Shown here one piece after another: positions 18,461 through 44,975 of a stretch of DNA of 64,000 bases. Under the pieces are notes generated by a model. The model was given only the letters and a program-made list of their open reading frames with translations. It did not search any database and had not been told where the DNA came from. The DNA is from Subtercola frigoramans (GTDB lineage Bacteria; Actinomycetota; Actinomycetes; Actinomycetales; Microbacteriaceae). The stretch spans positions 1,302,001 to 1,366,000 of the forward strand of contig NZ_JAFBBU010000001.1 in NCBI RefSeq assembly GCF_016907385.1, read 5' to 3'. Every line of letters starts with the position of its first letter. Position 1 is the first letter of the stretch. The translations under genes and the position numbers were made by a program.

Positions 18461-20164
18461 ATGAACGAACCTCATTCATACAGGCGAGAAGAGCAGCTGA
18501 CCGCTGATCTCGAAGCCGCCTGCGTGCTGCTGAGGCGCTGTCGCGAGAGTCTCAGTGCCGGTTCGTCGACTGCGGGTTCGTCGACTGCGGGGTCACCTGC
18601 TGCAGGGTCTCTTGCTCCGGGGTCGCTGAATGCAGGGTCGCTGAATGCAGGGTCGTCGAATGCAGGGTCGCTGACTGCGGTGTCGTTGACGGTAGTGTCG
18701 TTGGCCGATGACGAACTGCTGCGTGTTGCAGCGGCAGCGGCCGAGGTCAGACAGGCTTGCGATTCCATCGAGGTCGCTCTCGCCGGGGAGATCGGCGATC
18801 GGTCGCGCCCGCAACTGGGTGGCGAACGCCTGAGTGCACGTAAGGGGTGCAGAAACGCCGCCGAGCTGCTGCAGCGCATCACCCGTGTGTCCTCCGCGAC
18901 AGCAACCAGGCTTGTTCGGGTGGGCGAGGCTGTACGGCCGGCGATATCGATGACCGGTCAGACCTTGCCTGCCCGGTTTTCGATCCTCGGTTCAGCGCTT
19001 GAGAATGCCGACGTCTGCCTTGATGCTGCCAGCGTCATCGTGAATGGGCTGTCTGTTCCTTCGTTGCGAGCAGATCAGATTGCCGTCGATGCTGCCGAGG
19101 TTGAGTTGGTGGCAGCAGCGCTCGGGTCGAGCGTGGAGTGTCCGGTGCCGGCTATGGCCGATGATCTCCGGTTGCAGGCTGCGGTGTGGCGCCTGGTCAT
19201 CGATCCCGACGGTGTCGAACCCGACGAAGAGCGCGCTATGTGCCATCGGTCGCTCAAACTGGGTCGAGCGACTTTTGCGGGTGTGCCGCTCTCCGGAGTG
19301 TTACTGCCCGAGGCCGCTGCTCGGTTGCAGAGAATGTTCGACGCCTATCTGTCTCCTGTGACGAGTGCGGTCGCTTTCCCGACCGACGCAGTGACGACCG
19401 ACGCAGTGACGACCGACGCAGTGACAGCCGATTCCGCATGTGCCGCTGCCACGGGTGTCGCTGCCACGGGTGTTGATACAACTGATGCTGCCGACACAGC
19501 AGATGCCAATACTGCAGACGCAGAATCCATCGCAGCAGGAGAATTTACTGTTGTTGCCGACGACAGGTCGCGAGTTCAGAAACAACACGATGTTTTCCTC
19601 TCGATCCTCGACAGTGCGAGTCGCTCAGCAGACACCCCGTCGATCGGCGGGGCACCGGCGTCCGTTGTGGTCAGTGTTCGCGAGTCCGACCTCGTAACTG
19701 GCGCCGGGGTTGGGTGGATCGAAGGCAGTGACGTCCCGGTGTCAGGCCGTACCGTTCGCCAGCTGGTGTGTTCCGGTGGTGTGCAGCGTGTCGTGCTTTC
19801 AGACGAGGGTCGCATAGTCCGCTTGGGTGCCGAGCAACGGTGTTTCGACGGCCGGCAGCGTCGCGCAATCACTCTTCGTGACGGCGGCTGCGTGATTCCG
19901 GGCTGCCGGGTGCCCGCTTCGTGGTGCGAGATCCACCATGTCGACGAATTTGCCGACGGAGGGCCGACACACACCGACAACGGCGTGTTGTTGTGCTGGT
20001 TTCATCACCGAACCATCGATCACTCGGGGTGGGAGATCCGAATGCACGCGGGCGTGCCCCATCTCAAGGCACCACCCTGGATTGACCCAAAGCATCGTCG
20101 GTGGATGCCCGTGACGAAGTCCCGAACCAGATTGGCCCAGGCCTTCGATGACCGGGCGGAGTAG
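18461..20164 (+). CDS. DUF222 / HNH endonuclease (13E12 repeat family)
   Basis: A 567-residue member of the actinobacterial 13E12/DUF222 family with a C-terminal HNH nuclease domain. The HNH motif reads CVIPGCRVPASWCEIHHVDEF...TDNGVLLCWFHHRTIDH (about residues 474-520), with two CxxC-like zinc ligands and the catalytic His pair. The N-terminal DUF222 region is interrupted by ten 15-nt tandem repeats (18560-18709, residues about 34-83). A second array of three exact 15-mers lies at 19381-19425 (AVTTDAVTTDAVT). One TTA codon is at residue 281. These genes occur in many copies in related genomes and may be mobile; no element ends are seen here. Confidence 0.9.
   Translation: MNEPHSYRREEQLTADLEAACVLLRRCRESLSAGSSTAGSSTAGSPAAGSLAPGSLNAGSLNAGSSNAGSLTAVSLTVVSLADDELLRVAAAAAEVRQACDSIEVALAGEIGDRSRPQLGGERLSARKGCRNAAELLQRITRVSSATATRLVRVGEAVRPAISMTGQTLPARFSILGSALENADVCLDAASVIVNGLSVPSLRADQIAVDAAEVELVAAALGSSVECPVPAMADDLRLQAAVWRLVIDPDGVEPDEERAMCHRSLKLGRATFAGVPLSGVLLPEAAARLQRMFDAYLSPVTSAVAFPTDAVTTDAVTTDAVTADSACAAATGVAATGVDTTDAADTADANTADAESIAAGEFTVVADDRSRVQKQHDVFLSILDSASRSADTPSIGGAPASVVVSVRESDLVTGAGVGWIEGSDVPVSGRTVRQLVCSGGVQRVVLSDEGRIVRLGAEQRCFDGRQRRAITLRDGGCVIPGCRVPASWCEIHHVDEFADGGPTHTDNGVLLCWFHHRTIDHSGWEIRMHAGVPHLKAPPWIDPKHRRWMPVTKSRTRLAQAFDDRAE
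18560..18709 (+). repeat. Ten-copy 15-nt in-frame tandem array
   Basis: Ten consecutive 15-nt units of the type GGGTCGCTGAATGCA, coding for GSxxA pentapeptides (GSSTA, GSPAA, GSLNA and so on). Units 1-2 and 5-6 are identical to each other; later copies diverge toward the right end. The array sits in the DUF222 half of the HNH gene. Confidence 0.95.
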
Positions 20165-20259
20165 CGGCAATGCCCGTACCTCCCGCCTGATCATTGTGTT
20201 GCCGACCCAGCCGAGCGGGGCGGTCGGCTTCACTGGGGTCTGTCAGCCTATTCCAGGCA

Positions 20260-20961: not shown

Positions 20962-21071
20962 GAGCACTCCTTCGCTGGAAGTCCTCCCGATCCTTGTGGA
21001 CGCCGTCAGAGGACGCGGTTCGGCAGCATTTCACTGAATGGTACTCCGGCGCGTGGGGGAGAGATCAAGTG

Positions 21072-21308
21072 TCACCCGCTCCGAGGTTCACTCCCAGGCA
21101 ACGACCTGACGTAGCCGACGACGGCATTGGCGTGCCCGTGTCCCATGCCGTGTTCGGTCTTGAGCCACGTGACGATCTCCATGTGTTTGGAAGCAGGAGC
21201 GTGTTCCACCAGATCGAACCAGTACTGCATCGGATGCCCGTACTTCTTCTCGATCGACGGAAAGTAGCTCGCCGGGCCCTTCACTGCTTCTGACGCTGCT
21301 TCTGTCAC
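21072..21308 (-). CDS. DUF4287 family protein
   Basis: A 78-residue protein of the DUF4287 family, with the signature SYFPSIEKKYGHPMQYWFDL, then HMEIVTWLKTEHGMGHGHANA. Related domains occur in proteins with DUF5655; function is unknown. The GTG start at 21308 has GAGGAGACA immediately upstream. This Shine-Dalgarno plus start unit is present in three tandem copies (see the repeat at 21305-21360). Confidence 0.88.
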   Translation of the reverse strand: MTEAASEAVKGPASYFPSIEKKYGHPMQYWFDLVEHAPASKHMEIVTWLKTEHGMGHGHANAVVGYVRSLPGSEPRSG

Positions 21309-21360
21309 TGTCTCCTCATCCTGTCACTGTCTCCTCGTCCCGTCACTGTCTCCTCAACTC
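21305..21360 (-). repeat. Triplicated Shine-Dalgarno/GTG unit, 19-nt period
   Basis: Three 19-nt direct repeats, each containing GAGGAGACAGTGA on the minus strand: a ribosome-binding site and GTG codon. The copy nearest the gene provides the DUF4287 start. The farthest copy opens a 13-codon upstream frame whose TGA overlaps the DUF4287 GTG (GTGA). The middle copy opens a three-codon frame. Confidence 0.85.
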
Positions 21361-21432
21361 TGGCTCCGCAGCTCTGCATCCGCAACCGTGTGACTTCGGC
21401 AGATGAGGAGCGATGGCTAAGGAATGACGGCG

Positions 21433-23241
21433 TCAGCGTTCGCGTCGACCTGCGAGCAGGGCATGCAGCAGCGGGATGATCGACCCGACCAGGAGCACGG
21501 TACCGAGTACCGCGTCGCTGGCGTGGAGCACGGCTCCGGCGATCACGAGAGCACCGAACAACAGTGCTGAGATCAGCCTTCGAGCCGTGCGCTCCAATCG
21601 AGCGACGCGCTTCTCGAGCGCAGGGCTCGAAACTGCCACGGTGCCGTCTTCGAAGCGGGTGATGAGGGAGTCGAGCCGTTTCGGGAGGCGTACTGCGATT
21701 CCGGCGGTCTCGAGGGCCTGCTTCGCGAAATCCTTCACGACGTTTCCGCCTTCGTCGCGCAGAAGCTTCGCGGCGTAGGGCTCGACGGAGTCCCAGAGGT
21801 TGAATGCGGGGTTGAGCGCGCTGCAGACGCCGGAGACCAGCGACATCGCCCGGATGATCAGCAGGAAGTTCTCCGGAAGCTGGACCGGCAGCGTTCGAAC
21901 GACGTCGCTGAATTGTTCGGCGAAGGCGCGGAACTCCCGCGGATCCACTTCGCGCAGTTCGGCGAATCCCATGCCGCCGAAGCGGGCGAAGAGCTGGGTC
22001 ATCGCCTTCTCGAGCTCGGTGGTATCGGCGGAGGGGAGAAGCACACCCACGTCACGGACGGCATCCACCAGGCCCTTGCCGTCGCGGGACGCCGCGGCAA
22101 TCAGCATCTTTCGCAGGCCGCTTCGCGTGTTGCTCGGAACCTCGCCCATCATGCCGAAGTCGATGAAGGTCAGTTTCCACGGGCGAAAGCCAGCTGCGGG
22201 GGCACCTGCAGGAGAACTTGCAGGTAAGTCTGCGGGTGAACTAGCAGGTGAGTCTGCAGGAGAGTTTGCGGGGATATTCACCGTCTTGTCCACAGGCGTG
22301 ACGAAGATGTTACCTGGGTGAGGGTCGGCGTGGAAGAACCCATTTGTGAACAGCTGGTCGAACATGACCGCAGCGAAGACGGGAGCCACTTCTGCGGGGT
22401 CGATGCCGGCCGCGATCAGGGCATCGGTATCGGTGATCTTAATCGCAGTGACGTCTTCCAGTGTGAGGACGCGCCGTGTGGTGCGTTCCCAGACGACTGC
22501 GGGCACGCTCACCCGATCGTCGCCTTCGAAGTCCGCGGCGAAACGCTCGGAGCTCGTGGCCTCGTGCAGGTAGTCGATCTCCTCGAGGCTCGTCTGCGCG
22601 AACTCCTCGACCAGTGCGGGCATATCGACCCGGTCAGAAATGAGTCGGACATGGTTGAGCCACCCGCCGACCCTGCGGAGTGCCGCCAGGTCGACTTCGA
22701 TGATGGTGTCGATTCCGGGGCGCTGCACTTTCAGAACGACGCCGCGGAGTCCGGTGTCGGCGGAATCGAGTGGGCCGAGAATCGCCCGGTGGGCCTGCCC
22801 GAGCGACGCTGCGGCGACCGGGGTCTCGTCGACCATTGCGAAGGCACGATCCAGCGACACGCCAAGCTCCGCCTCAGCGAGCGCGCGGATAGCCAAGAAC
22901 GGAACAGGTGGTACTTCGTCTTGTAGGCCCTCGAGTTCCTTCGTGATCTCCGGAGGCAGCACATCGAGTCGAGAGGACATGAATTGCCCGACCTTGATCA
23001 TCAACCCGCCAAGGTCTACAGCGAGCACGTGGAACCGCTGCGCGAAACGGCGCATGCGTTTCGACCGCGTGCGCTCGGCGATGCTGGTGAGTCCGATGCG
23101 GGGGAGGAATAGTTCGTACCACCACGTGACAGCGAGGTTCCAGCCTGCGAACCGCAATATGCGCCTGTAGCGAGCGCGACCTGCACGGGCACCGGGAATC
23201 GAATGTTTCAGGTCCTGACTATCAGGCGGCACCCCCGTCAA
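21433..23241 (-). CDS. ABC1/UbiB-family atypical protein kinase, first copy
   Basis: A 602-residue UbiB/AarF (ADCK-like) protein with two C-terminal membrane helices (about 555-595). The diagnostic KxGQ motif reads MIKVGQFMSSRLDVLPPE near residue 82. AASLGQAH is the Ala-rich nucleotide loop and VLKVQRPG the lysine strand. The catalytic loop is FFHADPHPGN, followed by the DFG-equivalent FIDFGMMGEV. Between these a Pro/Ser/Ala insert of about 30 residues (period four: SPAD SPAS SPAD) is encoded by degenerate 12-nt repeats near 22200-22276. The start is TTG 23241, overlapping the PadR stop (TTGA). Role unproven; the family affects isoprenoid-quinone metabolism. Confidence 0.87.
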   Translation of the reverse strand: MTGVPPDSQDLKHSIPGARAGRARYRRILRFAGWNLAVTWWYELFLPRIGLTSIAERTRSKRMRRFAQRFHVLAVDLGGLMIKVGQFMSSRLDVLPPEITKELEGLQDEVPPVPFLAIRALAEAELGVSLDRAFAMVDETPVAAASLGQAHRAILGPLDSADTGLRGVVLKVQRPGIDTIIEVDLAALRRVGGWLNHVRLISDRVDMPALVEEFAQTSLEEIDYLHEATSSERFAADFEGDDRVSVPAVVWERTTRRVLTLEDVTAIKITDTDALIAAGIDPAEVAPVFAAVMFDQLFTNGFFHADPHPGNIFVTPVDKTVNIPANSPADSPASSPADLPASSPAGAPAAGFRPWKLTFIDFGMMGEVPSNTRSGLRKMLIAAASRDGKGLVDAVRDVGVLLPSADTTELEKAMTQLFARFGGMGFAELREVDPREFRAFAEQFSDVVRTLPVQLPENFLLIIRAMSLVSGVCSALNPAFNLWDSVEPYAAKLLRDEGGNVVKDFAKQALETAGIAVRLPKRLDSLITRFEDGTVAVSSPALEKRVARLERTARRLISALLFGALVIAGAVLHASDAVLGTVLLVGSIIPLLHALLAGRRER

Positions 23242-24085: not shown

Positions 24086-25840
24086 ATGTCCCAGACGGGT
24101 TCCGCACAGATTTCAGTACCATCACGGGGTGATCGTGGTGTGCGTCGCTGGCACGGCAGGCGACCAGCAGAAAGTTCCAGGCCCGTGGCGGGTTTTCTCG
24201 TGGGGGGTCTGATCACAGTGACTGTATTGCTCGGGACCGGAGTGGCTACGGCCAGCGCCGATACGGGCACTGATCTGCCCCAGGAACAGATCGCCGCGAT
24301 CGGCGATGCCGGAACCGTCTACCTCAGCGGAACGTGGACGGGGTTTGTGAACTATCCCACGGCGGATGGATCGTACTCGTGGTCTGACCAGATAGACGCG
24401 GGCTTCAGTTGCAGCGGATTTGTGGCTAGCCCCGACGGTTACATTGTGACTGCAGGCCATTGTGCAGATGTGGCCGAAGGAAAGTCGGCGATTGTCGACC
24501 AGTTCCTGGCCAACGAGGTGGCGAAGGGCACGATCACCGACGCCGATGTCACTTCGTTCATCAGTGGTGGTGCCGAGGCCAACTGGCCGGTGGAGGGCCA
24601 GACAACCGGTTCATCGCCCGAGCTTGCGATGCAGGTCTACCCGGCCATCAGTATCACCGGCAGCAATGCCGCCGGCTACGCGGGTGTGCTGGTGGACGAT
24701 CGGCCAATAAGCCAGGGTGACACCGCCCTCTTCAAGATCGACACCACTTCACCGCTGCCTGTACTTCTGGTCTCCGCGAACCAGCCGACGACGGGGCAGA
24801 CGGTCAACGCGATCGGGTACCCCGGCAATGTCACAGCGCTCGTGAGTGGCAATCCGCAACCCACGTTCTCCAAGGGTGAAGTGAGCGGCCGGCAGCAGAC
24901 CGCAGGAGGGCCATTCACGCAGATCGGTATCACGATGAGCCCGGGTATGAGCGGTGGCCCCGTGGTCAACGGCCAGGGTGACGTCGTCGGAACGGTCAGC
25001 TTCGGCCCGTCGAACGACACGCAGCAACTGAACTTCGCCACGGCGCAAGACACGATTGCCGCGATGCTGGCCAGAAACGGGGTCAAGAACACCCTGAGCG
25101 ATATCGACCAGAGCTACCGCAAGGGCCTGAACGAGTACTTCAACGGCCAGTACCACGCCGCGGCGACGGACCTCGGGAATGTTGTCACGCGTCAACCGAG
25201 CAACGCCATAGCCCAGCAGTATCAGAGCAAGGCCATCGCCGCGTACCCGCAGGAAAACACAAACGGGTGGGTAATCTGGCTGATCGTCGGGGCAGTCATA
25301 GTGCTCGTCATTGTTCTCGTGGTCGTCGTGCTCCTCGTGCTCCTCCGCGGTCGGCGGCGCAGGAACGCTGCAGCGTCGCCCTCAGGCGTCACCGGTACCG
25401 ACTTCACAGGTGCGGGCGCCCAGCAACCGGCTCACTACCCGCCTGCCGCGACAGCATATGCTGCAGCGCCAACGGGTGCGTATGCCACTGAGCCCGCACC
25501 GCCTGCCACGTATCAGGCTGCGCCCGCAATGGCTCCGACGACTGCTGTGTACCCTACACTTGCCGAACCCTTGCCTGCGGCACCGCAGGTCCCAGCTGTG
25601 GCCCCCTCCTCTGACGCATCGAATTCTGCAACCGCCGTCGGCTTCAAACCCAACCCAACGGATGCTCGAACTGACGAGTCGCCCGGCTCTCCGCTTCCGG
25701 CGGAGTCGATCACGGCCGAGTCGAACACGGCGGAGTCGAACACGGCGGTTTCCGAATTCATGTACTGCTCCAACTGCGGCGCGAAGAACAAGCCTGACGC
25801 ACACTTCTGCCCGAGCTGTGGGCATGCCGTCGGAGCATGA
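24086..25840 (+). CDS. Membrane-anchored trypsin-like serine protease with C-terminal zinc ribbon
   Basis: A 584-residue protein of unusual architecture. An N-terminal hydrophobic signal/anchor at about 34-57 (FLVGGLITVTVLLGTG) leads to an exported S1-type protease domain. Its triad is visible: His in VTAGHCAD (about 124), Asp in GDTALFKID (about 211) and Ser in SPGMSGGPVV (about 288). A short TPR-like helical segment follows (YRKGLNEYFNGQYHAAATDL, about 345-365), then a membrane helix at about 394-421. A 130-residue Ala/Pro linker ends in a zinc ribbon CSNCGAKNKPDAHFCPSCG (about 560-578), predicted cytosolic. Start ATG 24086 is likely but a later start before the signal cannot be excluded. 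The function could be signalling across the membrane. Confidence 0.8.
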   Translation: MSQTGSAQISVPSRGDRGVRRWHGRRPAESSRPVAGFLVGGLITVTVLLGTGVATASADTGTDLPQEQIAAIGDAGTVYLSGTWTGFVNYPTADGSYSWSDQIDAGFSCSGFVASPDGYIVTAGHCADVAEGKSAIVDQFLANEVAKGTITDADVTSFISGGAEANWPVEGQTTGSSPELAMQVYPAISITGSNAAGYAGVLVDDRPISQGDTALFKIDTTSPLPVLLVSANQPTTGQTVNAIGYPGNVTALVSGNPQPTFSKGEVSGRQQTAGGPFTQIGITMSPGMSGGPVVNGQGDVVGTVSFGPSNDTQQLNFATAQDTIAAMLARNGVKNTLSDIDQSYRKGLNEYFNGQYHAAATDLGNVVTRQPSNAIAQQYQSKAIAAYPQENTNGWVIWLIVGAVIVLVIVLVVVVLLVLLRGRRRRNAAASPSGVTGTDFTGAGAQQPAHYPPAATAYAAAPTGAYATEPAPPATYQAAPAMAPTTAVYPTLAEPLPAAPQVPAVAPSSDASNSATAVGFKPNPTDARTDESPGSPLPAESITAESNTAESNTAVSEFMYCSNCGAKNKPDAHFCPSCGHAVGA

Positions 25841-25849
25841 CTGCGTGAT

Positions 25850-26698
25850 TCAGTCGACTGTTCCGCGGCGTCCGAATGTCTCGGCTTCGGGTTTCAGTGC
25901 CACGGCGCCGATCAGCCGCAGCAATATGACGGAGGTGAGGGTTCCCGCGGCGAGGATGCCCGCCAGCACGACGATCTGAAATCGGCCGGCCTCAAGCGGT
26001 GAGGCGCCCCCGAAGATCGCTCCGACGAATGCGCCGGGCAGCACGACGATTCCCGTGGTCCGTGTCTGGTCGATCGTGGGCACCAGGGCCGAGTAGATCG
26101 CTGTTCGGGCCAACTGGCGGGTCGACTCGATGGGCCGGGCACCGAGGGCGAGCCAGCCTTCGACCTCATCCCAATGATCGCGCACCGAGGTGTGAAAGCC
26201 GCGGCCGCTGAGCGAGGCGATGCTCATGGTGTTGCCGATGACGATTCCGCCGATCGCCAGGGCGTACCGTGGCGAGAACTCGATGGCACCCGTCGCGAAG
26301 ACGATCACAAGCACCACGATGTTGCCGGTGAGCATGGCGATGGCGACCGACACGACTTGCTGATGGTTCGCGCTGATGCTGCCTGTCTGGATGGTGCTTG
26401 TCTGGATGCTGCTTGTGTGGATGTTGCTTGCGTGAATGCTGTTCGCAGCAATGCGCCGCGAAGCCGTGAGCACCGCGGCGAAGAACATGATGACGAGTCC
26501 GAGCGCGACCCACACGGGATTGGCGATGATGCCGCTGAGTACGACGCTCAGGGCGGCGAGTTGGAGCGCACCGCGCAGGATGGCCCTGATCGGCGCAGTC
26601 GCCCGCGGAACCTGCGCGACGGAAAGTACCGCCACAGCCAGGGATGCGAGAGTTGCCACGGCGACGATCGTGGGTAACAGCTCGGCAAGCCAGTCCAT
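25850..26698 (-). CDS. FetB/UPF0014-type ABC transporter permease
   Basis: A 282-residue membrane protein of the FetB (YbbM) family, with about seven helices. Motifs ALQLAALSVVLSGI, ALAIGGIVIGNTMSIASLS and ALVPTIDQTRTTGIVVLPGAFVGAIFGGASP are strongly conserved in the family. E. coli FetAB is linked to iron homeostasis; no partner ATPase is adjacent here. A loop at about residues 84-108 carries five pentapeptide repeats (NSIHA SNIHT SSIQT STIQT GSIS) encoded by 15-nt units around 26376-26450. The start ATG is 26698; the gene is convergent with the protease gene. Confidence 0.85.
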   Translation of the reverse strand: MDWLAELLPTIVAVATLASLAVAVLSVAQVPRATAPIRAILRGALQLAALSVVLSGIIANPVWVALGLVIMFFAAVLTASRRIAANSIHASNIHTSSIQTSTIQTGSISANHQQVVSVAIAMLTGNIVVLVIVFATGAIEFSPRYALAIGGIVIGNTMSIASLSGRGFHTSVRDHWDEVEGWLALGARPIESTRQLARTAIYSALVPTIDQTRTTGIVVLPGAFVGAIFGGASPLEAGRFQIVVLAGILAAGTLTSVILLRLIGAVALKPEAETFGRRGTVD

Positions 26699-27471: not shown

Positions 27472-28896
27472 TCATTCGATCGCGAGTGCCCTCACCGGGG
27501 AGACCCGCACCGCTGAGCGCGCCGGAACTGCAGACGACACGATCGCGAGAACGATTGCGCCGGCCACGATGCTGAGGATGATCCACGCGGGAATAGTCGG
27601 CCAGAAGAACCCGCCGATGTGGTGGTTGCTGGAAATTGCGGCGAGTGCGCCTGCCCAGCCGTACACGGTGCCCAGAACAAGTCCCGTCGCTCCGCCGACG
27701 ACGGTCAACTGGATGCTCTCGGCGAGGATCATCATCCGAACCTGCTGCTTCGTGAACCCGAGCGCTCGCAGGAGCCCGATCTCGCGACGGCGCTGGATGA
27801 CGCTGAGCGACAACGAGTTGACGAGCCCGATTGCGGCGATCACGAGCGAGAACCCGATCAGAACGGTCAGGATGCCCATGGTGAGTTGCAGAAAGGCGCG
27901 ATCTCCATCGGCGTCTGCGGCATCGGCTCCAGCCGCGACAGGGCCGGTCTGGGCGAGGAACGACTGGCCGGCAACCGAGAACATAGTGACGAGGGTGACG
28001 CCGATGACGAGACCGATGGTCGACCGGGCCGACCGTGCGGGGTATCGGAGGGCGTTGGCGCTCGCAAGAACGCTCGGGGTTGAGGAGCCGGTGAGTCGCC
28101 CGGCCGCTTTCAGGAGGACCGGAATGAAGAAGGTCGAACCGAGCACGAATCCGACGAAGCTGAGGGCACCGCCGGGCGCCGCGACGAGCAGGCCGAATGG
28201 CGTCTTCAGCCCGATGGCGACGCCTGCGATGAGGAGAGCGATTCCTCCAAAGAAGCTGACGATGATGAGGGTTCGGAGTCGCCTGGGTATCTCTGAGACG
28301 ATCACGATTCGGGGTTCCTGGGTCGCACCGGTCGCCTCGATGGGCGAGACGCCGAGAATCTTGCGCGAACCGAACCAGGCAGCGCCAGTCGTGCTCACGA
28401 GGCCGACGATAACCGGTGCGACGAGCAGAGGAGACAGCGTGCTGATGGGCGTGTTGACGAAGGTGCCCGATGTGACGAGAGCTCCGTAGCTGATCTGGGT
28501 GACGAGCAGCCCGACCACAAGGCCGAGGGCAGCGCCGACGAAGCCCACGACGGCCCCTTCGATCGCGATCGCGCCGCGCAATGTGCTTGCCGAGGCCCCG
28601 AGAAGCCTCATCAGCGCGATGTGCCTGGCGCGGCCCGCCATGATGATGCCGAAGGTGTTCGCAGTGACAATGCACGCGACGAACACGGCGACAAAGAAGA
28701 AGAGCACGTCGAGAACGTCGAGCAGGAGCACCACGTAGCCGTGTTTGATGAACTGGCCGCCGACCGACTGCACGCGGAGCACGATGTCCATTTCGATCAT
28801 CATCGTCGCGAATACCGAGGTGATGAAGGCGACGAGCAGGCTCGAGGTGTGCTGCTTCCCGCCGTTCCAGAGCTCACGGGACGCGAGGGCGATCAT
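27472..28896 (-). CDS. FtsX/MacB-type ABC transporter permease
   Basis: A 474-residue permease with two FtsX-like modules and about eight membrane helices. It has MAGRARHIALMRLLGASASTLRGAIAIEGAV in the first module and QRRREIGLLRALGFTKQQVRMMILAES in the second, both typical coupling helices. The C-terminal VPARSAVRVSPVRALAIE is classic for this family. Such pairs export lipids, peptides or antibiotics; the substrate is not known. It follows its ATPase with a 4-base overlap, and a two-component system sits immediately upstream. Confidence 0.88.
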   Translation of the reverse strand: MIALASRELWNGGKQHTSSLLVAFITSVFATMMIEMDIVLRVQSVGGQFIKHGYVVLLLDVLDVLFFFVAVFVACIVTANTFGIIMAGRARHIALMRLLGASASTLRGAIAIEGAVVGFVGAALGLVVGLLVTQISYGALVTSGTFVNTPISTLSPLLVAPVIVGLVSTTGAAWFGSRKILGVSPIEATGATQEPRIVIVSEIPRRLRTLIIVSFFGGIALLIAGVAIGLKTPFGLLVAAPGGALSFVGFVLGSTFFIPVLLKAAGRLTGSSTPSVLASANALRYPARSARSTIGLVIGVTLVTMFSVAGQSFLAQTGPVAAGADAADADGDRAFLQLTMGILTVLIGFSLVIAAIGLVNSLSLSVIQRRREIGLLRALGFTKQQVRMMILAESIQLTVVGGATGLVLGTVYGWAGALAAISSNHHIGGFFWPTIPAWIILSIVAGAIVLAIVSSAVPARSAVRVSPVRALAIE

Positions 28897-29720
28897 GCGC
28901 TCACCTCGAGGTTCAGGATGATGTCGGAGAGAGCTTTCGCGGGTTCAGCGCCGAGATCCACGCTGCGCACATCGTGGGCGATCGACCCGTCGGCGATGAA
29001 GATCACTCGGTCGGCGTGCGAGGCTGCCACGGGATCGTGCGTCACGAGCACGACGGTCTGCTGGTATTCCCGTGTCAGGTCTCTGAGCAGGCCCAGGACT
29101 TCGCGGCTCGACTTCGAGTCGAGGTTTCCGGTCGGCTCATCGGCGAAGACCAGCTGGGGGCGCATGGCCAAGGCGCGGGCGATCGCTACGCGCTGTTGCT
29201 GGCCGCCGGAGAGCTCATGCGGGCGACGGCTCTCGAGCATCCCGATGCCGAGCCTGCCGAGCAGCTCACGCACCCAGGCGAGTTCGAGTGCGCTCGGGCG
29301 ACGGCCGTCGAGTTCGAACGGGAGGGTGACATTGCTCATGACCGAGAGAGTGGGCACGAGGTTGAAGGCCTGGAAGACGAAGCCGAGGCTTCGCCGGCGA
29401 AGCAGGGTGAGTGCGTTGTCGTCGAGGTCGGTGATGTCGGTGTCGCCGATGCTGATTCGGCCGTGGGTGGGGGAGTCGAGCCCGGCGAAGACATGCATCA
29501 GGGTCGATTTGCCCGAACCGCTCGGGCCCATGATGGCGGTGAGGGAGCCCGCCTCGATGTCGAGATCGATGTTGTCGAGGGCGCGGGTCTGGCTTTCGCC
29601 GGTTCCGTAGATCTTGCTGACGCCGACGGCTCTCGCCGCGATGTCTCTGGCTGCGATGTCTCTCGCTGCGATGGCCGGGGTTGGTGTCGACCGGTGTGTG
29701 GGAATCGGGGATTCGCTCAT
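28893..29720 (-). CDS. ABC transporter ATP-binding protein, LolD/MacB type
   Basis: A 275-residue ATPase. Walker A MGPSGSGKSTLMHV, Q-loop GFVFQAFNL, signature ELSGGQQQRVAIARAL, Walker B LVFADEPTGNLDS and the H-loop VLVTHD are intact. The N-terminus has a threefold IAARD repeat encoded by 15-nt tandem units at about 29627-29671, ahead of the first beta strand. It is the first gene of the exporter pair and lies 227 bases downstream of the response regulator. A GAGGAGACACA site precedes ATG 29720. Confidence 0.92.
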   Translation of the reverse strand: MSESPIPTHRSTPTPAIAARDIAARDIAARAVGVSKIYGTGESQTRALDNIDLDIEAGSLTAIMGPSGSGKSTLMHVFAGLDSPTHGRISIGDTDITDLDDNALTLLRRRSLGFVFQAFNLVPTLSVMSNVTLPFELDGRRPSALELAWVRELLGRLGIGMLESRRPHELSGGQQQRVAIARALAMRPQLVFADEPTGNLDSKSSREVLGLLRDLTREYQQTVVLVTHDPVAASHADRVIFIADGSIAHDVRSVDLGAEPAKALSDIILNLEVSA

Positions 29721-34824: not shown

Positions 34825-36242
34825 CCTCACTAACCATCTCGGGTGTCTCCAAGTCGCTCGGCGGCAATTGGGTGTTGCGCGACCTCTCGCTCACCGTCGA
34901 TGCAGGTTCGCGCACGGCGGTCGTCGGCGCCTCGGGCAGTGGTAAGAGCACGCTCCTTCGCCTGATCGCGGGCTTCGACCGGGTGGATGCTGGCCAGATC
35001 GCCCTCGGTGACACCGTCGTCTCTGCTGCTGCTGGTTCAGGTGTGGATGGTGCCGGTACAGGTGCTGCTGAGGGCGCTGGTCGTGCTGGTGCTGTTGCTG
35101 GTGCTGATGCCGGTCGTACTGGAGCTGGTGCTGGCGGATCCGCAGCTTCTGGGGCTCGCGCCTCGACGTTCGTTGCCGCTCATCGCCGGGGTGTGGGCTA
35201 TGTGGCGCAGGATGGCGCCCTCTTTCCGCACCTCACCGTGCAGCAGAACATCAGTTTCGGGCTGGCGCACGCTGGTCGCGCTGCCCACCCTGATCGTGCT
35301 GCCCACCCTGATCGAGCCGCCCGCGCTGGCCGAACTGATCGCGGGACTCGAGGTACCTCTGCACGCGATCGTATCCGCGAGGTAGCAGAGTTGGTCGCCC
35401 TCGACGCCGCGCTGCTCAGCAGGTATCCGCATGAGATCTCCGGCGGCCAGCAGCAGCGGGTCGCTCTGGCGAGGGCGCTCGCTCCTTCGCCCTCGGTGAT
35501 CCTGCTCGATGAGCCGTTCAGTGCCCTCGACACGGGACTTCGGGCCCAGACTCGGCAGGCCGTCATCGCCGCTTTGGAGGCCAGCGCGGTCACGACCATC
35601 CTTGTGACGCACGACCAGGAGGAGGCGCTGTCGTTCGGCCAGCAGATTGCCGTCATCTCGGGCGGAACGATTGTGCAGGCCGGAGCCCCGGTCGATGTCT
35701 TCGACAGCCCGGTGACAGCGGAGACGGCGATGTTCCTCGGCGAGGCCGTCCTTCTGCCCTGCACGGTACGCGAAAGTGCGGGTGCGGGTGCGGGTGCGGG
35801 TGCGGGTGCGAGTGCAAGCGCAAGTCCAAGCCGAGGGGTTGTGTCGTGTGCGCTCGGCGAATTACCGGTGCGGCACGATCACCGGGCGGGAACGGATCGT
35901 GCGGCTCGCGCGTTGATCAGGCCGAGTCAACTGACCGCGCACTTCGACACCGTCTCACCGAACGCCATCATCGTCGCAGCGCACTACGCGGGTGACAATG
36001 TGGAGCTCATTCTGCGACTTGCTGCCGAAACGGCACCTCAGGGGCCTCAGACTTATGCGGGCGGTACCCTGATAGGTTATGCACGCGCAGGCGGTGCATC
36101 CACAGGCGGTGCATCCACAGGCGGTGCAGGCGCGTCGGGTGCCCTGACGATAGCCGTGACGCTCGCCACCGCCGAGGCGCGCGAGTTCCGGCCCGGCCGC
36201 ACACTGACTCTCCGCGTGAAGGGCGCTGTGAACCTCTACTAG
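34821..36242 (+). CDS. Ferric iron ABC transporter ATP-binding protein with repeat insertions
   Basis: An FbpC-type ATPase of 473 residues, over 100 longer than usual. Walker A GASGSGKSTLL (about 36), Q-loop GYVAQDGALFPHLT (about 135), signature ISGGQQQRVALARAL (about 206), Walker B VILLDEPFSALD and H-loop LVTHDQEEALS are intact. Extra length comes from a 45-residue Gly/Ala insert between Walker A and the Q-loop (about 74-120), an 18-nt duplication (AHPDRA twice, near 35279-35320), an (AG)n/(AS)n run near residue 320, and 15-nt repeats at 36091-36135 (GGAST). The C-terminal TOBE-like domain is present. TTG 34821 is the start. Confidence 0.9.
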   Translation: MTSLTISGVSKSLGGNWVLRDLSLTVDAGSRTAVVGASGSGKSTLLRLIAGFDRVDAGQIALGDTVVSAAAGSGVDGAGTGAAEGAGRAGAVAGADAGRTGAGAGGSAASGARASTFVAAHRRGVGYVAQDGALFPHLTVQQNISFGLAHAGRAAHPDRAAHPDRAARAGRTDRGTRGTSARDRIREVAELVALDAALLSRYPHEISGGQQQRVALARALAPSPSVILLDEPFSALDTGLRAQTRQAVIAALEASAVTTILVTHDQEEALSFGQQIAVISGGTIVQAGAPVDVFDSPVTAETAMFLGEAVLLPCTVRESAGAGAGAGAGASASASPSRGVVSCALGELPVRHDHRAGTDRAARALIRPSQLTAHFDTVSPNAIIVAAHYAGDNVELILRLAAETAPQGPQTYAGGTLIGYARAGGASTGGASTGGAGASGALTIAVTLATAEAREFRPGRTLTLRVKGAVNLY

Positions 36243-36949: not shown

Positions 36950-36973
36950 GGCTGTGAGCCTACCCGGGTGAGC

Positions 36974-39595
36974 CTACTCGTGTGAGGCGCCGCTCAGTGT
37001 TGGTCGACCACGGGTTTCGGCACTGGGTTTCGGCAAGGGGGCGAATCGTCGCAGCCGCAGGCTGTTGGTCACCACGAACACGGACGAGAAGGCCATGGCG
37101 GCGCCGGCCAGCAGGGGGTTCAGCAGGCCCAGCATGGCCAGCGGTATCGCGGCCACGTTGTAGGCGAAGGCCCAGAAGAGATTGCCTTTGATGATGGCCA
37201 GCGTGCGCCTGGCGAGCCGCACTGCGTCACCGACCACCAGGAGGTCCCCGCTCACAACGGTGATGTCACTGGCGGCGATGGCCGCGTCAGTTCCGGCGCC
37301 CATCGCGATACCCAGGTCACTGGCAGCGAGTGCGGCAGCGTCGTTCACGCCGTCACCGACCATCGCCACCACTCGGCCGTCTGATTGCAGCTGCCGGATC
37401 ACAGCCAGCTTCTCTTGCGGGGTGACACCGGCGTGGACGTCGGTTATGCCCACTTCGGCGGCAACGGCAGCCGCGGCTCCGGCATTGTCACCGGTCAGAA
37501 GCACCGGGCGCAGGCCCAGCGCGCCGAACCGACGAATTGCTTCGGCGCTCGACAGTTTGACGGTGTCACGCACGCCGATGATCCCGCGAAGCTCACCATC
37601 CCAGGCGACTGCGGTGACCGTCACGCCCGACGATTCAGCGTCGCTGATTGCTGCGGCAGCGTCAGCGGGCAGCGCGATGGCCCACGACTCGGTCAACCAG
37701 CCTGCCTTGCCGGCCAGAACCAGCGTGTCGCCGACGACCGCCTGGACTCCCTGGCCGGGTGTTGACAGGAACGATTCTGGTGCGCCACCTGTCATTGCCG
37801 ACGTGTCTCCAGCAGAGGTGTTTCCACCCGCAGTGTCTTCAGCAGCCGTGTCTTCAGCAGCCGTGTCTCCACCAGCTGTGTCTTCAGCAGCAGAGTACTC
37901 GACGATGGCCCTGCCGACAGGATGCTCTGAGCCGAGTTCGACGGCGGCGGCGTTGCGCAGCAGTTCTACCCGCGAGGTACCGGCGCTGGGCGTCACGAAG
38001 GTGACCCCCATCTTCCCGGTGGTGATCGTGCCCGTCTTGTCGAGAACGATGGTGTCGATCGTGCGCGTCTGCTCGAGGACCTGCGGTCCACGGATGAGAA
38101 TGCCGAGCTGAGACGCGCGACCGGTGCCGACGAGCAGAGCTGTCGGCGTTGCCAGTCCCAGGGCGCACGGGCAGGCGATGATCAGTGTCGCGACGGCCGC
38201 CGTGAAGGCGAGAGTCAGCGTGCCGCCGAAGAGCAGCCAGCCCACGAAGGTCGCCACAGCGAGGCCGAAGACGACCGGGACGAACACGGCAGAGACACGG
38301 TCAGCCAGTCGCTGGGCATCCGCCTTCCCCGTCTGGGCATCTTCGACGAGTCGACCGATGCGCGCGAGCTCGGTGTCGGCACCCACTCGCGTCACTTCGA
38401 CCACCAGCTGACCACCGACGTTGACCGTGGCGCCGACGACCCGGTCGCCGACCGCGACGTCCTCTGCGGCCGATTCGCCGGTGAGCATACTCAGGTCGAC
38501 AGCGCTGGAGCCGCTCGTGATGCGGCCGTCAGCGGCGATCTTCTCGCCCGGGCGAACGACGATCGTATCACCCACCATCAGCGACGCTGCGGGAACTCGA
38601 GTCTCAACGCCATCGCGGAGCAGGTTCGCATCTTTGGCACCCAGTTCGAGCAGGGCGCGAAGTGCTGCACCCGATTGTTTCTTCGCCCTGGCTTCCATGT
38701 ATCGGCCGGCCAGGAGGAACACAGTCACGGCCGAGCACACTTCGAGGTAGATCTCAGACGGGCCACTACCCATGCCAGAATCCGCCCCACCAATCGCGCC
38801 GGGCAGCAGGGTGAAGGTCATGTGCATGCCGGGCATGCCAGCCGTGCCGAAGAAGAGCGCGTACAGAGACCACCCGAACGCGGCCGTCACACCGACGCTC
38901 ACGAGCGTGTCCATCGAGGATGCACCGTGGCGGGCGTTGAGGAGCGCGGCGCGGTGGAACGGCCAGGCGCCCCACACGACGACGGGCGCGGCGAGTGTGA
39001 GCGCGAGCCACTGCCAGTTGGTGAACTGCAGGATCGGGATCATCGAGAGCAGCACCACCGGCACGGTCAGTGCGGTCGAGACGATGAGGCGGTGACGCAG
39101 TTCCTCTGTTGCCTGGTCGCGCGGTGTTGGAAGATCTTCGCTTCCTGGAGCGCTGCCTGGAGCGCTGCCCGAAGCGCCGCCGGAGACGTCGCTGCCGGGG
39201 CCTTCGCCGCCAGAGTCTTCGCGAGAATCAGCCAAGGGGCGGGGGGTTCGCGCGGCCGGAGGAGGTGCCGGCACCGTCGCCGTGTAGCCTGCGTCGCGCA
39301 CAGCTGTGATCAGCGTCGCGATCAGTGCCGACGTCTCCACGCCCTGAGCGTGCACCCGAGCCTTCTCGGTGGCGTAGTTCACGCTCGCCTCGACGCCGTC
39401 GATGCGGTTGAGTTTGCGTTCGATGCGTGTCGCACACGAGGCGCACGTCATCCCTGCGATGTCGAGGCTGACGTCTGTCGTGTGTGTGTCTGGTGTCACG
39501 ACGTCTCCCGCCCTGTCTCCCGCCCTGACACCCGCACTGACTCCTGCGGCGACTCCAGCGGCGACGCCTGTGGTGGCTCCAAGCTCAGGCATCAT
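36974..39595 (-). CDS. copA: Copper-exporting P1B-type ATPase CopA
   Basis: An 873-residue P1B ATPase. The N-terminal heavy-metal domain has [13 protein letters not shown] (Cys 51 and 54). TGES is in the actuator domain, the membrane CPC motif in [22 protein letters not shown] (about 475), phosphorylation motif [10 protein letters not shown] (about 518), HP in [13 protein letters not shown], and [14 protein letters not shown] near 750. Two repeat insertions stand out: 12-nt repeats in the first 30 residues ([14 protein letters not shown]) and a six-copy 15-nt array at 37803-37892 just after the HP motif in the nucleotide-binding domain. ATG 39595 (or 39592) overlaps the copZ stop, so the pair is coupled. 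Confidence 0.95.
37803..37892 (-). repeat. Six-copy 15-nt in-frame array in copA
   Basis: Six contiguous 15-nt units; on the plus strand GTGTCTTCAGCAGCC and close variants, two of them identical (37833-37847 and 37848-37862). They encode acidic/Thr pentapeptides of the type [10 protein letters not shown] in the N-domain, next to the HP motif. Confidence 0.95.
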
Positions 39596-39873: not shown

Positions 39874-39910
39874 GAACAGCTCCTTCACTTTCTGGATCAA
39901 GAGGATTGAA

Positions 39911-39925: not shown

Positions 39926-39931
39926 CCAATT

Positions 39932-41590: not shown

Positions 41591-41635
41591 CTCACGATCT
41601 TCATCTCGGTCGCTTTCAGCTCAGTCACTTGCATC

Positions 41636-41995: not shown

Positions 41996-42017
41996 GGTGG
42001 CGAGCTTCCTCAAACGG

Positions 42018-42110
42018 GGTCTGGGTTTGAATAGGTCTGGGTGTTACGAGTCTGGGTTCGAATGGGTCTGCGTGTTACGGGTCTGCGTGTTACGGGTCTG
42101 GGTGTGAAAG
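42018..42110. repeat. 15-nt tandem repeats upstream of the ArsR gene
   Basis: About six copies of a 15-16-nt unit related to GGTCTGCGTGTTACG, two of them identical (42065-42079 and 42080-42094). They lie between the palindrome at 42136 and the ArsR start, so copy number would change the leader length. Confidence 0.85.
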
Positions 42111-42135
42111 ATCTGGGTCCGGCGTTGTAAATGTG

Positions 42136-42151
42136 TGACTTTATAAAGTCA
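42136..42151. promoter_or_regulatory. 16-bp perfect palindrome, probable operator
   Basis: TGACTTTATAAAGTCA is a perfect AT-rich palindrome in GC-rich DNA. It overlaps the last codons and stop (ACT TTA TAA) of the Mg2+-ATPase gene and lies about 140 bases upstream of the ArsR gene. It is the best candidate for the ArsR binding site. Confidence 0.65.
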
Positions 42152-44975
42152 TCATATCGTGCTTTCTCGAGGAGTACCGGGGCGATCGCGAGGTGAAGCG
42201 TGCCGCGCGGCGGGAGATCCTGGACGGGTGGGCGTGTTGGCGCGGTGCTCGCAATGCCCTCTCTGGCGACTGCTGGGCGGCCCGGGAGAAGAACCAGAGC
42301 TTGGCCAGTTCGACGAAGAACAGGTAGATGACGATCATCCCGAGCAGTGCGAGAAAGAACGGGGCGGGCAGGGTGTCGAATCCGAGGAACTCTGCGAACG
42401 GGGAGAACGGTAGCCAGACGCCCAGCGCGACAACGCCGAGCGAAGCGGCTACCAGGGCGACGGAGGGTCGGCTCCGCAGGAACGGGACCCTGCGCGTGCG
42501 GATCGCGAAAATGATCAGCGTCTGCGTCGCAATCGATTCGATGAACCACCCGGCACGGAATTCGCCTTCGGAGGCATTGAAGACGAAAAGCATGAGGGCG
42601 AAGGTCGCGAAGTCGAACAGCGAACTGATCGGCCCGAACAGCAGCATGAAGCGCCGGATGTACGCGATGTTCCAGTGCGAAGGAGAAAGCAGCTGCTCCG
42701 TGTCGACGTGGTCGGTGGGGATGGCCAGCTGGCCCGAATCGTAGAGCAGGTTGTTGAGCAGGATCTGGCCGGGCAGCATCGGCAGGAAGGGGAGAACGAC
42801 AGAGGCGGTTGCTGCGCTGAACATGTTGCCGAAATTGCTCGAGGTGCCCATGAGGACGTACTTGATCGTGTTCGCGAAGATCCGTCGCCCCTCCATCACC
42901 CCGTCGGCGAGGACCCCGAGGTCCTTGTCGAGCAGAAGTACGTCGGCGGCATCCTTTGCGACGTCTGCGGCGGTCTCGACTGAGATGCCGACATCAGCCT
43001 GGTGAAGCGCCAGGGCATCGTTGACCCCATCGCCGAGGAACGCGACCGAACGCCCGCGGTGCCGGAGCTGGGCGATGATGCGGGCCTTCTGTTCGGGTGA
43101 GACGCGGGCGAAGATGGTCGCCTTCAGGGCGGCTTCGCCGAGCTCTGCATCGCTGAGGGCGTCGATGTCTTCACCGAGAAGCGTGGTGCCTGCAGTGGTG
43201 GTGCCCGCAGTGATGGTGCCTGCCGTGGTGGTACTCGCACTGGTGATGCCCGCAGTGTTGTCGCCTGAATTTCTGTTGCCTGAATTTCTGTAGGTGGTGA
43301 TGAGCCCGAGATCGGCGCACACCTTCTCGGCCACGATCGCGTTGTCACCGGTCGCGATCTTCACCTGGATTCCGAGCATCGCCAACCGCTCGAGCGAAGC
43401 TCGGGCATCCGCTTTGGGTTTGTCACGAAACGTGAGAAAGCCCGACAGCGTGAGGTCGTGCTCGTCGTCGGCATCGACACTCGCGAGTCCGGGAGCATCC
43501 CTCTGTGCAACGGCGATGACCCGTGCCCCCTGGCTGTACTGGGCATCGAGTAGGGCCTGCGCTCCGGCAGGCACCTTCGTGCAGTGCCGCAGAACGTCTT
43601 CGGGCGAACCCTTCGACACGATCCGCGTTGTGCCACCGGGTGTGCCACCGGGTGTGCCAGCGGGCCCCACGACGAGCGCACTGACCATTCGGCGCTCGTG
43701 ATCGAAGGGCAGGAGGTCGAGGCGGGTGAACGCACCTGTCACGCTGCCCCGGGCATCCGGTGCAAGCCACAGGGCCGCGTCGAGCGAGTTCAGCCCTACG
43801 ACGTCGATGAGGTTCGGATCCGTGAGCAGTGCTTCGCCGCCGACCCCTGTGTGGTTGGCGAACGTGGGCCCCACCACCTCCGTGGACAACAGGCCGAGCT
43901 CGACCAGTTCCTTCGATGTGATGGTCTCATCGACGCTGAGCGCCTCGATGAAGCTGATCGTGCCTTCGGTCAGTGTGCCCGTCTTGTCGGTCACGAGCAG
44001 ATCCATGTCTCCCAGGTCTTCGATGCACACGAGGCGCTTGACCAGTACTTTCCTGCGGATGAGCATGCGCGAGCCCGTGGCGAGGCTCGTACTCACCACA
44101 GCCGGCAGAAGCTGGGGCGTGATGCCAACGGCGATCGCCAGGGAGAAGAGCAGCGATTCGATGATCGGGCGCTGCAGCAGAACGTTGGCGATGAAGATGA
44201 ACGTCGTGAGCACGATCGCGACCTGAAGCAACAGCACAGAGAACCGGCTGAGGCCCTTCTGGAATTCGGTCACGGGCGCACGGGTGCCGAGCCCGAGCGC
44301 GATCTTGCCGAATTCAGCGTTTCCGCCGGTCGCGATCACGACGCCCGTGCCACTGCCCGATTGGATGATCGTTCCCATCAACAGGCACGATGTAAGGTCT
44401 TCGATTCCCCTGTCGCCGGAAACCGGCGCCGGGTCTTTCGCTACGGGCAGCGATTCGCCGGTCAGGATGCTCTCGTCGGAGAGGAGGTCCTTGCTGGTGA
44501 GCAGTCGCATGTCGGCAGGCACGACGGTGCCGACCGAGACACGCACCACATCACCCGGAACCAGGTCGACCACGTCGGTCTGTCGTGCATGCCCGTCTCG
44601 CACAGTGATGACTGTGTGCCTGACCTTGTCGTGCAGCGAGTCGGCTGTGAGCTGTGCCCGGAACTCGTTGACGAACCCGAGCCCGACGCTGACGACGAGA
44701 ATCACACCGATGATGATGGAGTTCGCCGCGTCCCCGAGGAACAGCGACACAGCTGCGGTGACGAACAGCAGGATGAGAATGGGGCTCCGGAGCTGCTGCC
44801 ACAACAGGGGCCACGCACGAGCCTTGTGGGTTCGCACAGCATTGGGCCCGATCATCCGCAGCCGAGTTGCGGCCTCGGTTGACGAGAGCCCCGACTCGGC
44901 ACTCCCACTCCCGCTGACCTCTGCACATATCTCGGCGGATGAACGCCCAGCGGCTTCACGCAGGGTGACGGTCAC
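42141..44975 (-). CDS. mgtA: P-type ATPase of the Mg2+ transporter (MgtA/P3B) type
   Basis: About 944 residues from GTG 44975. P-type landmarks: GFVNEFRAQ near TM2, LTGESLPVAKDP (about 170), phosphorylation motif LLVTDKTGTLTEGTISF (about 327), GDGVNDALALHQADVGISVETAADVAKDAADVLLL (split motif near 647), and MgtA-like NLLYDSGQLAIPTDHVD. A seven-copy 15-nt array (43183-43287) inserts about 35 residues in the P-domain loop before LLGEDIDALSD. A smaller GTPGGTPGG repeat occurs earlier. The C-terminal 40 residues are Arg/Ser-rich. It sits 9 bases after a UspA gene. Start is uncertain as no clear ribosome-binding site is seen. Confidence 0.9.
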   Translation of the reverse strand: MTVTLREAAGRSSAEICAEVSGSGSAESGLSSTEAATRLRMIGPNAVRTHKARAWPLLWQQLRSPILILLFVTAAVSLFLGDAANSIIIGVILVVSVGLGFVNEFRAQLTADSLHDKVRHTVITVRDGHARQTDVVDLVPGDVVRVSVGTVVPADMRLLTSKDLLSDESILTGESLPVAKDPAPVSGDRGIEDLTSCLLMGTIIQSGSGTGVVIATGGNAEFGKIALGLGTRAPVTEFQKGLSRFSVLLLQVAIVLTTFIFIANVLLQRPIIESLLFSLAIAVGITPQLLPAVVSTSLATGSRMLIRRKVLVKRLVCIEDLGDMDLLVTDKTGTLTEGTISFIEALSVDETITSKELVELGLLSTEVVGPTFANHTGVGGEALLTDPNLIDVVGLNSLDAALWLAPDARGSVTGAFTRLDLLPFDHERRMVSALVVGPAGTPGGTPGGTTRIVSKGSPEDVLRHCTKVPAGAQALLDAQYSQGARVIAVAQRDAPGLASVDADDEHDLTLSGFLTFRDKPKADARASLERLAMLGIQVKIATGDNAIVAEKVCADLGLITTYRNSGNRNSGDNTAGITSASTTTAGTITAGTTTAGTTLLGEDIDALSDAELGEAALKATIFARVSPEQKARIIAQLRHRGRSVAFLGDGVNDALALHQADVGISVETAADVAKDAADVLLLDKDLGVLADGVMEGRRIFANTIKYVLMGTSSNFGNMFSAATASVVLPFLPMLPGQILLNNLLYDSGQLAIPTDHVDTEQLLSPSHWNIAYIRRFMLLFGPISSLFDFATFALMLFVFNASEGEFRAGWFIESIATQTLIIFAIRTRRVPFLRSRPSVALVAASLGVVALGVWLPFSPFAEFLGFDTLPAPFFLALLGMIVIYLFFVELAKLWFFSRAAQQSPERALRAPRQHAHPSRISRRAARFTSRSPRYSSRKHDMMTL
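43183..43287 (-). repeat. Seven-copy 15-nt in-frame array in the Mg2+-type ATPase
   Basis: Seven contiguous 15-nt units on the plus strand of the form GTGGTGCCYGCAGTG, decaying to CTGTTGCCTGAATTT at the right end where the last two copies are nearly identical. They encode Thr/Ala/Gly pentapeptides (TTAGT, ITAGT). Confidence 0.95.

Follow-up and report, generated by a model that had tools for sequence, protein, structure and literature searches.

A zone of short in-frame and intergenic tandem arrays in Subtercola chromosomes

A 64,000-nucleotide stretch of the Subtercola frigoramans chromosome (the window; G000:1302001-1366000, where genome G000 is a single contig of 3,679,597 bases) carries many short tandem arrays, both within and between genes. 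They consist of head-to-tail units of ~10-60 nt in at least two copies, occur above chance, and in these respects match arrays of the minisatellite, or variable number tandem repeat (VNTR), type. The window lies inside an array-dense zone of ~0.4 Mb (G000 ~1.14-1.54 Mb). The congener Subtercola sp. PAMC28395 (G004; chromosome of 3,214,492 bp according to the available part of PMC10303725) is collinear with this zone, and its array clusters lie at corresponding places; one genome per species was compared. Arrays in genes keep the reading frame, array lengths turn over between the two species, the same sites are occupied repeatedly, and synonymous sites in the zone diverge at a normal rate. We regard it as fairly probable that these are short minisatellites made by a general duplication process, filtered in genes by frame and place, and concentrated in a zone with a normal substitution rate.

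Under this reading, an array would originate by tandem duplication of local DNA, most readily in units of ~15 nt (13-19 nt where the DNA is non-coding), and we infer that slippage would then drive its growth and shrinkage. The process would strike coding and non-coding DNA alike. In genes, a double filter would retain arrays that keep the frame (9, 12, 15 and 18 nt) and that fall in tails, linkers and loops tolerating residues rich in T, N, S, P, G and A. Fast turnover would often leave sister species with different arrays at one tolerant site. In the two Subtercola species the process would be concentrated in the ~0.4 Mb mid-arm zone, where the protein indel load would be raised about threefold at equal protein constraint with no rise in the point-substitution rate.

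Density and unit length of the arrays

Arrays were counted with Tandem Repeats Finder (TRF) at a score of at least 50 in G000, G004 and two further congeners (G009 and G001). The G000 contrast rests on sampled stretches totaling 398 kb in the zone and 560 kb outside, with ~2.7 Mb of the chromosome unread. Arrays of all periods number 197 in the zone and 48 outside; the G004 counts are 164 in 334 kb and 125 in 760 kb. The contrast at period 15 is ten-fold in G000 (178 arrays per Mb in the zone, 18 outside), and the G004 values are 164 and 50. Codon-shuffled copies of the zone yield 4, 5 and 6 arrays against the real 197. Exact self-matches of at least 14 bases, sought in the window and 20 other 20-kb stretches of G000, form 32 runs at period 15, 14 at 18, 11 at 12 and 13 at 30, and essentially none in three third-order Markov copies of the 464 kb, with no run at period 15.

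Three hot clusters stand out within the zone in G000, at ~1.18-1.26, 1.31-1.35 and 1.48-1.53 Mb. The original prediction, made from the window alone, described pervasive arrays, but a genome-wide trait was not borne out. Only three of the first 21 stretches sampled (the window, L009 and L010) were dense, and fill-in sampling showed a single zone. Outside it, the sampled G000 density of 0.86 arrays per 10 kb is below the 1.94 found at 80 named actinobacterial loci (303 arrays in 1,565 kb; 23 per Mb at period 15), a non-random sample because the loci were picked by their copA relative. Totals for G009 and G001 are 135 and 103 arrays in 400 kb each, or 68 and 48 per Mb at period 15.

Given the positions of dnaA (9.5 kb) and a dif-like site (2,079,244) in G000, the zone is mid-arm. 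A terminus effect is ruled out, as the dif-like site is ~0.54 Mb from the near border of the zone. The corresponding positions are 964 kb and 2,346 kb in G004, and 3,296 kb and 1,379 kb in G009. The chromosome arms of all three genomes differ by 0.45-0.48 Mb, and the zone, or the part matching it, is on the longer arm; the equal size may be coincidence. The zone has the average GC content of the genome and includes core genes for YchF, citrate synthase, PRPP synthetase, PhoH and class II aldolase. One 10-kb piece of it (L010:10000-20000, G000 1.490-1.500 Mb) has no match in the collinear G004 zone and carries seven arrays, so strain-specific zone DNA is array-rich too. A separate observation concerns a ~76-bp stretch that covers the end of the citrate synthase gene and continues just past it (L149:19354-19429, G000 1,445,354-1,445,429). 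It occurs at no fewer than 17 further places in G004 (79-95% identity) and at least one in G009 among the matches listed, and represents a small family of dispersed repeats in Subtercola that has nothing to do with the tandem arrays.

Intergenic DNA is the more densely populated with arrays. Genes were called with a simple predictor that placed some starts too late, and the counts leave aside arrays of unclear coding status (50 of the 197 in the G000 zone and 30 of the 164 in that of G004). Coding arrays per kb in hot clusters, the rest of the zone and outside are 0.486, 0.146 and 0.055 in G000 and 0.435, 0.180 and 0.099 in G004; the non-coding series are 1.86, 0.97 and 0.39, and 2.04, 1.13 and 0.59. 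Within the zone, non-coding DNA thus holds 0.97-2.04 arrays per kb versus 0.15-0.49 in coding DNA.

The period divides by three in 100 of 101 arrays in zone genes of G000 and 88 of 89 in G004, versus 24 of 46 and 17 of 45 intergenic arrays. Pooled over both species, zone non-coding periods peak at 15 nt (13 arrays), flanked by 10 at 13 nt, 7 at 14, 8 at 16, 4 at 17, 8 at 18 and 4 at 19. Counts at 12, 15 and 18 nt are alike in coding (28:89:24) and non-coding DNA (3:13:8; chi-square p 0.16). Because nearly all periods divide by three in genes and far fewer do between them, five codons is a general ~15-nt unit size seen through a reading-frame filter. The arrays had been taken for a behavior of coding loops specific to five codons; such a mechanism is disfavored by the denser non-coding arrays with units of 13, 14, 16, 17 and 19 nt. 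The suggestion of one generating process plus tolerance of extra residues fares better, as the period spectrum is alike inside and outside genes and amino-acid change is tolerated at arrays.

The preference for 15 over 18 nt is clear for the zone (12:15:18 of 37:126:37, versus 19:36:39 at the named loci; p 4e-5) and is not proven for the genus (15:46:35 in G009 and G001 together; p 0.39 versus the named loci). A k-mer test found no common unit motif; the test is crude, since repeats hold fewer distinct k-mers.

Turnover, indels and substitutions

Lengths were compared for 124 arrays of G000 1.13-1.56 Mb, of which 110 had anchors in G004 on either side; the 14 lacking an anchor were dropped. 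The two species differ in length at 104 of the 110 sites, and by at least 9 bases at 94, figures to which nearby indels can add. The arrays are thus not old fixed linkers. The G000 site is longer at 69 and the G004 site at 35, a lean that is expected because the arrays were selected in G000. In alignments, local sequence that is single in G004 is duplicated in G000, for example at 1,312,627 (14 nt) and 1,312,721 (15 nt). Elsewhere, as in mgtA, both species have arrays of differing units at one site.

Such recurrence is common. Of the 197 zone arrays of G000, 181 could be mapped, and 66 of these coincide in position with an array of G004 (64 different ones in all); random spans of equal width would give 12.8 (s.d. 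3.4, maximum 22 in 300 trials). An earlier control unmatched for width gave 378 of 5,426, and in coding DNA the counts were 36 of 91 versus 218 of 4,521. Periods are equal in 24 of the 66 pairs. In eight of these 24 the units are at least 80% alike, above the value of 0.67 that marks the 95th percentile for random pairs, and in the remaining 16 they stay at or below it. Judged by unit sequence, a minority of the same-place arrays share ancestry, and the remainder look like the refilling of the same tolerant sites.

Point substitutions tell of no general acceleration. Among 510 gene pairs kept from 554 reciprocal best pairs (275 genes in the zone, 235 outside), the median synonymous divergence (dS) is 0.361 in the zone versus 0.379 outside, four-fold site divergence is 0.276 versus 0.288, and the median nonsynonymous divergence (dN) is 0.023 versus 0.019. 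Indel blocks are 2.20 versus 0.60 per 1000 residues in the same genes, and the rate ratio at equal dN is 2.96 (Poisson fit with dN as covariate; bootstrap 95% 2.2-4.5). A raised point-mutation rate and a foreign origin of the whole zone were rejected in view of the equal synonymous divergence, the GC content and the core genes.

Amino-acid change rises close to arrays (3.7% of codons differ at distances above 1 kb, and 17.7% at no more than 15 bases), and four-fold divergence is flat with distance throughout the zone (0.25-0.29). Error-prone synthesis is not supported as the main cause, there being no point-mutation halo at arrays. Coding arrays (3,468 residues) are enriched in T, N, S, P, G and A and depleted in W, Y, M, I and L. 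The coding strand of G000 coding arrays has more A than zone genes (21.8% vs 17.2%) and less T (12.6% vs 17.5%), and the amino-acid make-up could explain the A. Overall array GC is 0.616 and 0.636, versus 0.645 and 0.646.

Arrays of the window and of CopA

TRF gives 96 rows for the window. It recovered every array of the original prediction, and translation unit by unit placed all of them in frame. Intergenic arrays of non-triplet period had been overlooked (for example 10627-10654, 11173-11216, 12703-12757, 21302-21356 and 42018-42105). Positions below are those of the window, and the G004 state is that at the matching place.

10627-10654, intergenic: 14-nt duplication; one diverged copy in G004
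11173-11216, intergenic: 13-nt array
12703-12757, intergenic: 13-nt array
18560-18709, plus strand, DUF222 protein, N-terminal part (aa 34-83): 15-nt, 10 units that vary (mostly G-S-x-x-A; overall match 77%); G004 site 120 nt shorter
19380-19425, plus strand, DUF222 protein: 15-nt, 3 identical units (TTDAV)
19440-19473, plus strand, DUF222 protein: 15-nt, 2.3 units; 15-nt array in G004
21302-21356, intergenic: 19-nt array; 14-nt array in G004
22206-22269, minus strand, ABC1-family kinase gene (aa 325-346): 12/24-nt array; 24-nt array in G004
25698-25748, plus strand, trypsin-like protease gene, just ahead of the C-terminal zinc ribbon: 15-nt, 3.4 units (TAESN); 31-nt array in G004
26375-26441, minus strand, UPF0014 (FetB-type) permease (~aa 83-108): 15-nt, ~4.5 units; 15-nt units of other sequence in G004
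29630-29673, minus strand, ABC ATPase ('MacB-like'), N-terminal tail (aa 16-32): 15-nt, 2.9 units (DIAAR)
35268-35322, plus strand, second ABC ATPase gene ('FbpC-like'): 18-nt array (HPDRAA); G004 45 nt shorter
35776-35815, plus strand, second ABC ATPase gene: 6-nt (GA) array; G004 24 nt shorter
36088-36128, plus strand, second ABC ATPase, C-terminal part: 15-nt, 2.7 units (GGAST); G004 45 nt shorter
37802-37891, minus strand, copA (aa 568-598): 15-nt, 6 units (e.g. AAEDT); G004 75 nt shorter
39139-39222, minus strand, copA, linker after the copper-binding domain (aa 125-153): 12/15-nt arrays, GS-rich; G004 carries its own array
39505-39570, minus strand, copA, N-terminal tail (aa 9-31): 12-nt arrays
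42018-42105, intergenic: 15/16/31-nt array; 16-nt array in G004
43183-43291, minus strand, mgtA, between DKTGT (aa 398) and GDGVND (aa 716): two adjoining 15-nt arrays, 43183-43257 (5.0 units) and 43259-43291 (2.2 units); 15-nt units of other sequence in G004
43629-43664, minus strand, mgtA: 12-nt array (GGTP); G004 24 nt shorter
47001-47060, minus strand, gene with a sub-threshold HTH_18 match, N-terminal part: 6/18-nt array; 18-nt array in G004
55702-55781, upstream region between two minus-strand genes, within the longest possible reading frame of the first: 16-nt, 5.1 units; 14-nt array in G004

The DUF222 assignment is backed by Pfam, and an HNH domain, also proposed for this protein, has no Pfam match at E<=0.001. 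For the two ABC proteins the only test was against ABC_tran, and 'MacB-like' and 'FbpC-like' are the names of the original prediction. Its picture of identical neighboring units holds for some arrays, and others, such as the 77%-matching one of the DUF222 protein, are imperfect. Placement in variable loops needs similar qualification: the MacB-like array and the 12-nt copA array are in N-terminal tails, although arrays do sit where amino-acid change is tolerated.

Placement was modeled for CopA alone. In an alignment of the G000 and G004 proteins with 16 other actinobacterial CopA, the motifs DKTGT, SEHP and GDGVND are preserved, as the original prediction had said of catalytic motifs. The 31-residue G000 array at aa 568-598 falls between the invariant SEHP (aa 556) and the next conserved block, and is absent from all 17 relatives. 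The linker after the metal-binding domain carries arrays in G000 and G004 alike; the other sequences have a shorter one. An AlphaFold2 model built from 17 sequences (mean pLDDT 71.9, pTM 0.53) has pLDDT below 50 at residues 1-37, 113-154, 261-277, 577-600 and 860-873 and in two three-residue bits; all three array regions (9-31, 125-153 and 568-598) overlap such segments, namely 1-37, 113-154 and 577-600. The CopA of a Microbacteriaceae metagenome-assembled genome (L061, FW021_bin.57) carries an insert resembling a repeat (AHDEAHVAVAHDA) in another loop that follows DKTGT, hinting that such inserts may occur in other Microbacteriaceae.

Two segments of the window recur elsewhere. The ABC transporter pair at 27472-29641 has two further copies in the same genome (G000:C1:201692-203851 and 220857-223014; 75-76% DNA identity). 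The block at ~25.9-35.8 kb of the window (UPF0014 permease, ABC transporter genes and neighbors) is present in G001 (G001:C2:13775-22763), G007 (G007:C7:330173-339097) and G008 (G008:C6:158803-167051) at ~71-83% DNA identity, with shorter pieces in other congeners, and we call it mobile.

Alternative explanations and known systems

Several results weigh against a zone-specific process. The zone borders and hot clusters were chosen post hoc from the G000 counts, and most of the outside genes compared for dN (212 of 235) sit near the zone, at 1.00-1.14, 1.54-1.62 and 1.70-1.76 Mb. In G004 the rest of the zone contrasts weakly with outside DNA (p 0.10 for non-coding and 0.04 for coding arrays). 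G009 and G001 have an excess of 3.38 and 2.58 arrays per 10 kb that is more diffuse, so the zone is not a genus rule. Related units in eight of the 24 equal-period pairs mean that part of the recurrence is shared ancestry. Two of the three hot clusters have raised median dN (0.044 and 0.042, with 0.027 in the third and 0.017-0.033 in outside stretches), and the clusters include mobile or locally gained genes. For these last two reasons relaxed constraint explains part of the pattern, and in accessory gene clusters it is a real contributor.

Tolerance may even be the whole explanation, a possible though doubtful one, if duplications arise evenly genome-wide and the zone is merely richer in accessory, weakly constrained genes. 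Besides the dN of the two hot clusters, gene content favors this. The mobile block described above occurs in the same order in G001 (contig C2), G007 and G008 away from their copA homologue, and is accessory for that reason. Among the matches listed (11 other Subtercola genomes), G004 alone is collinear over the full 20 kb that includes copA and mgtA; for array-rich L141 beyond its first 6.9 kb, the listed matches (6 genomes) again show collinearity in G004 alone, whereas cold L149 is collinear in six of six. Aligned non-coding indels of 6-60 nt are also just 1.3x as frequent in the zone (14.3 vs 11.2 per kb), and those above 60 nt 1.8x (2.1 vs 1.1 per kb), in nucleotide alignments that are poor and too broken for the 1.3x figure to weigh much. 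However, the threefold excess of protein indels persists at equal dN, non-coding arrays in the zone are 2.5-4.8x denser in G000 and 1.9-3.5x in G004, and arrays are also present in the initial 6.9 kb of L141, a part that is collinear in other congeners. A zone-specific rise in duplication rate, and not tolerance alone, is therefore likely but not proven. Tentatively, the ~0.4 Mb segment might have a heritable mutator state specific to duplications, in which ~15-nt duplications arise several-fold faster, substitutions stay normal, and the same loops are rewritten repeatedly in sister species.

An origin of the zone, or of its hot clusters, by integration of a plasmid or island from donors already rich in tandem repeats is improbable. 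The mobile block and a copA homologue do both lie on G001:C2, a second contig of 165,207 bases, and the difference between replichores in G000, G004 and G009 is about the size of the zone. Yet the zone has housekeeping genes, average GC and the synonymous divergence of the rest of the chromosome, and because only eight of 24 comparable same-place arrays have related units, most arrays would postdate any import event.

End joining of staggered breaks, in which fill-in of the overhang and addition of a base precede joining by Ku, is at least as unlikely a source. LigD is the usual partner of Ku in end joining. Ku was found in all 10 Subtercola genomes searched, and isolated two-copy repeats of G000 with period of at least 15 match most often over the period minus one (12 cases, with 1 on either side), as expected from a duplicated overhang plus one added base. 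G004 lacks this signature (6 cases at period minus one, 8 and 2 on either side), 17 of 18 genomes searched have Ku, among them G009 and G001, in which no comparable zone was observed, there is no excess of point changes beside arrays, and many-copy arrays require slippage regardless. In both G000 (G000:C1:1512075-1512611, L152) and G004 the only Ku gene is located within the third hot cluster, near arrays.

A dedicated element that diversifies particular proteins in a programmed way is highly improbable: the same sites do recur in both species and several affected proteins are transporters, but the crude k-mer test found no shared unit sequence (no search for a template or reverse transcriptase was made) and arrays are denser between genes than within them.

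We favor, then, a general duplication process with a frame and place filter, and its products have precedents. The behavior had been thought nameless, but in-frame arrays with units divisible by three are known from Legionella and from Borg elements. In Legionella pneumophila, in-frame intragenic arrays with such units differ in copy number between related genomes, and 26 are listed genome-wide in the available text of PMC2639597. The Subtercola arrays differ from those described there in their concentration in one zone and their single modal unit length. Mutation rates vary by region along bacterial chromosomes, as the accessible portions of PMC6106087 and PMC7023495 report. Compared with the variation they describe, the Subtercola zone lacks raised synonymous substitutions and is distinguished by tandem duplications and indels only. 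The literature searched held no bacterial chromosome with such arrays concentrated in one collinear zone at normal synonymous divergence, and no paper mentioning 'Subtercola' along with 'tandem repeat'.

Should the zone prove to be a genuine regional increase in a single class of mutation, indel mutability would be separated from substitution mutability on one chromosome, and the zone would offer a natural system for studying how short tandem duplications come by their unit length and location. The arrays may also be a route by which ordinary enzymes and transporters gain disordered loops within sister-species time, with conserved motifs intact (tested for CopA).

The closest published pattern is that of the tandem repeats of Borgs, giant archaeal elements. 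In the sections of PMC9879509 available to us, all Borg units in open reading frames divide by three, versus 14-38% of intergenic ones; the repeats form rapidly and independently, encode disorder-prone stretches, are enriched in A and poor in T on the coding strand, and are confined to one genome compartment. Measured against that account, Subtercola arrays are likewise short, pervasive within and between genes, fast in turnover and restricted to a zone, with units divisible by three in genes and not between them. Their formation appears rapid and largely independent, even with related units in some comparable pairs. Encoded disorder is indicated by residue composition and by one modeled protein, CopA, and the coding strand of genic arrays has more A, which amino-acid make-up could account for. 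Unlike the near-perfect Borg repeats as described, Subtercola units are often imperfect and their periods peak near 15 nt. Borgs are extrachromosomal, and such repeats are nearly absent from the chromosome of the host, whereas the Subtercola zone is part of a one-contig bacterial chromosome with dnaA, a dif-like site and core genes. The arrays thus extend the Borg pattern to a bacterial chromosome.

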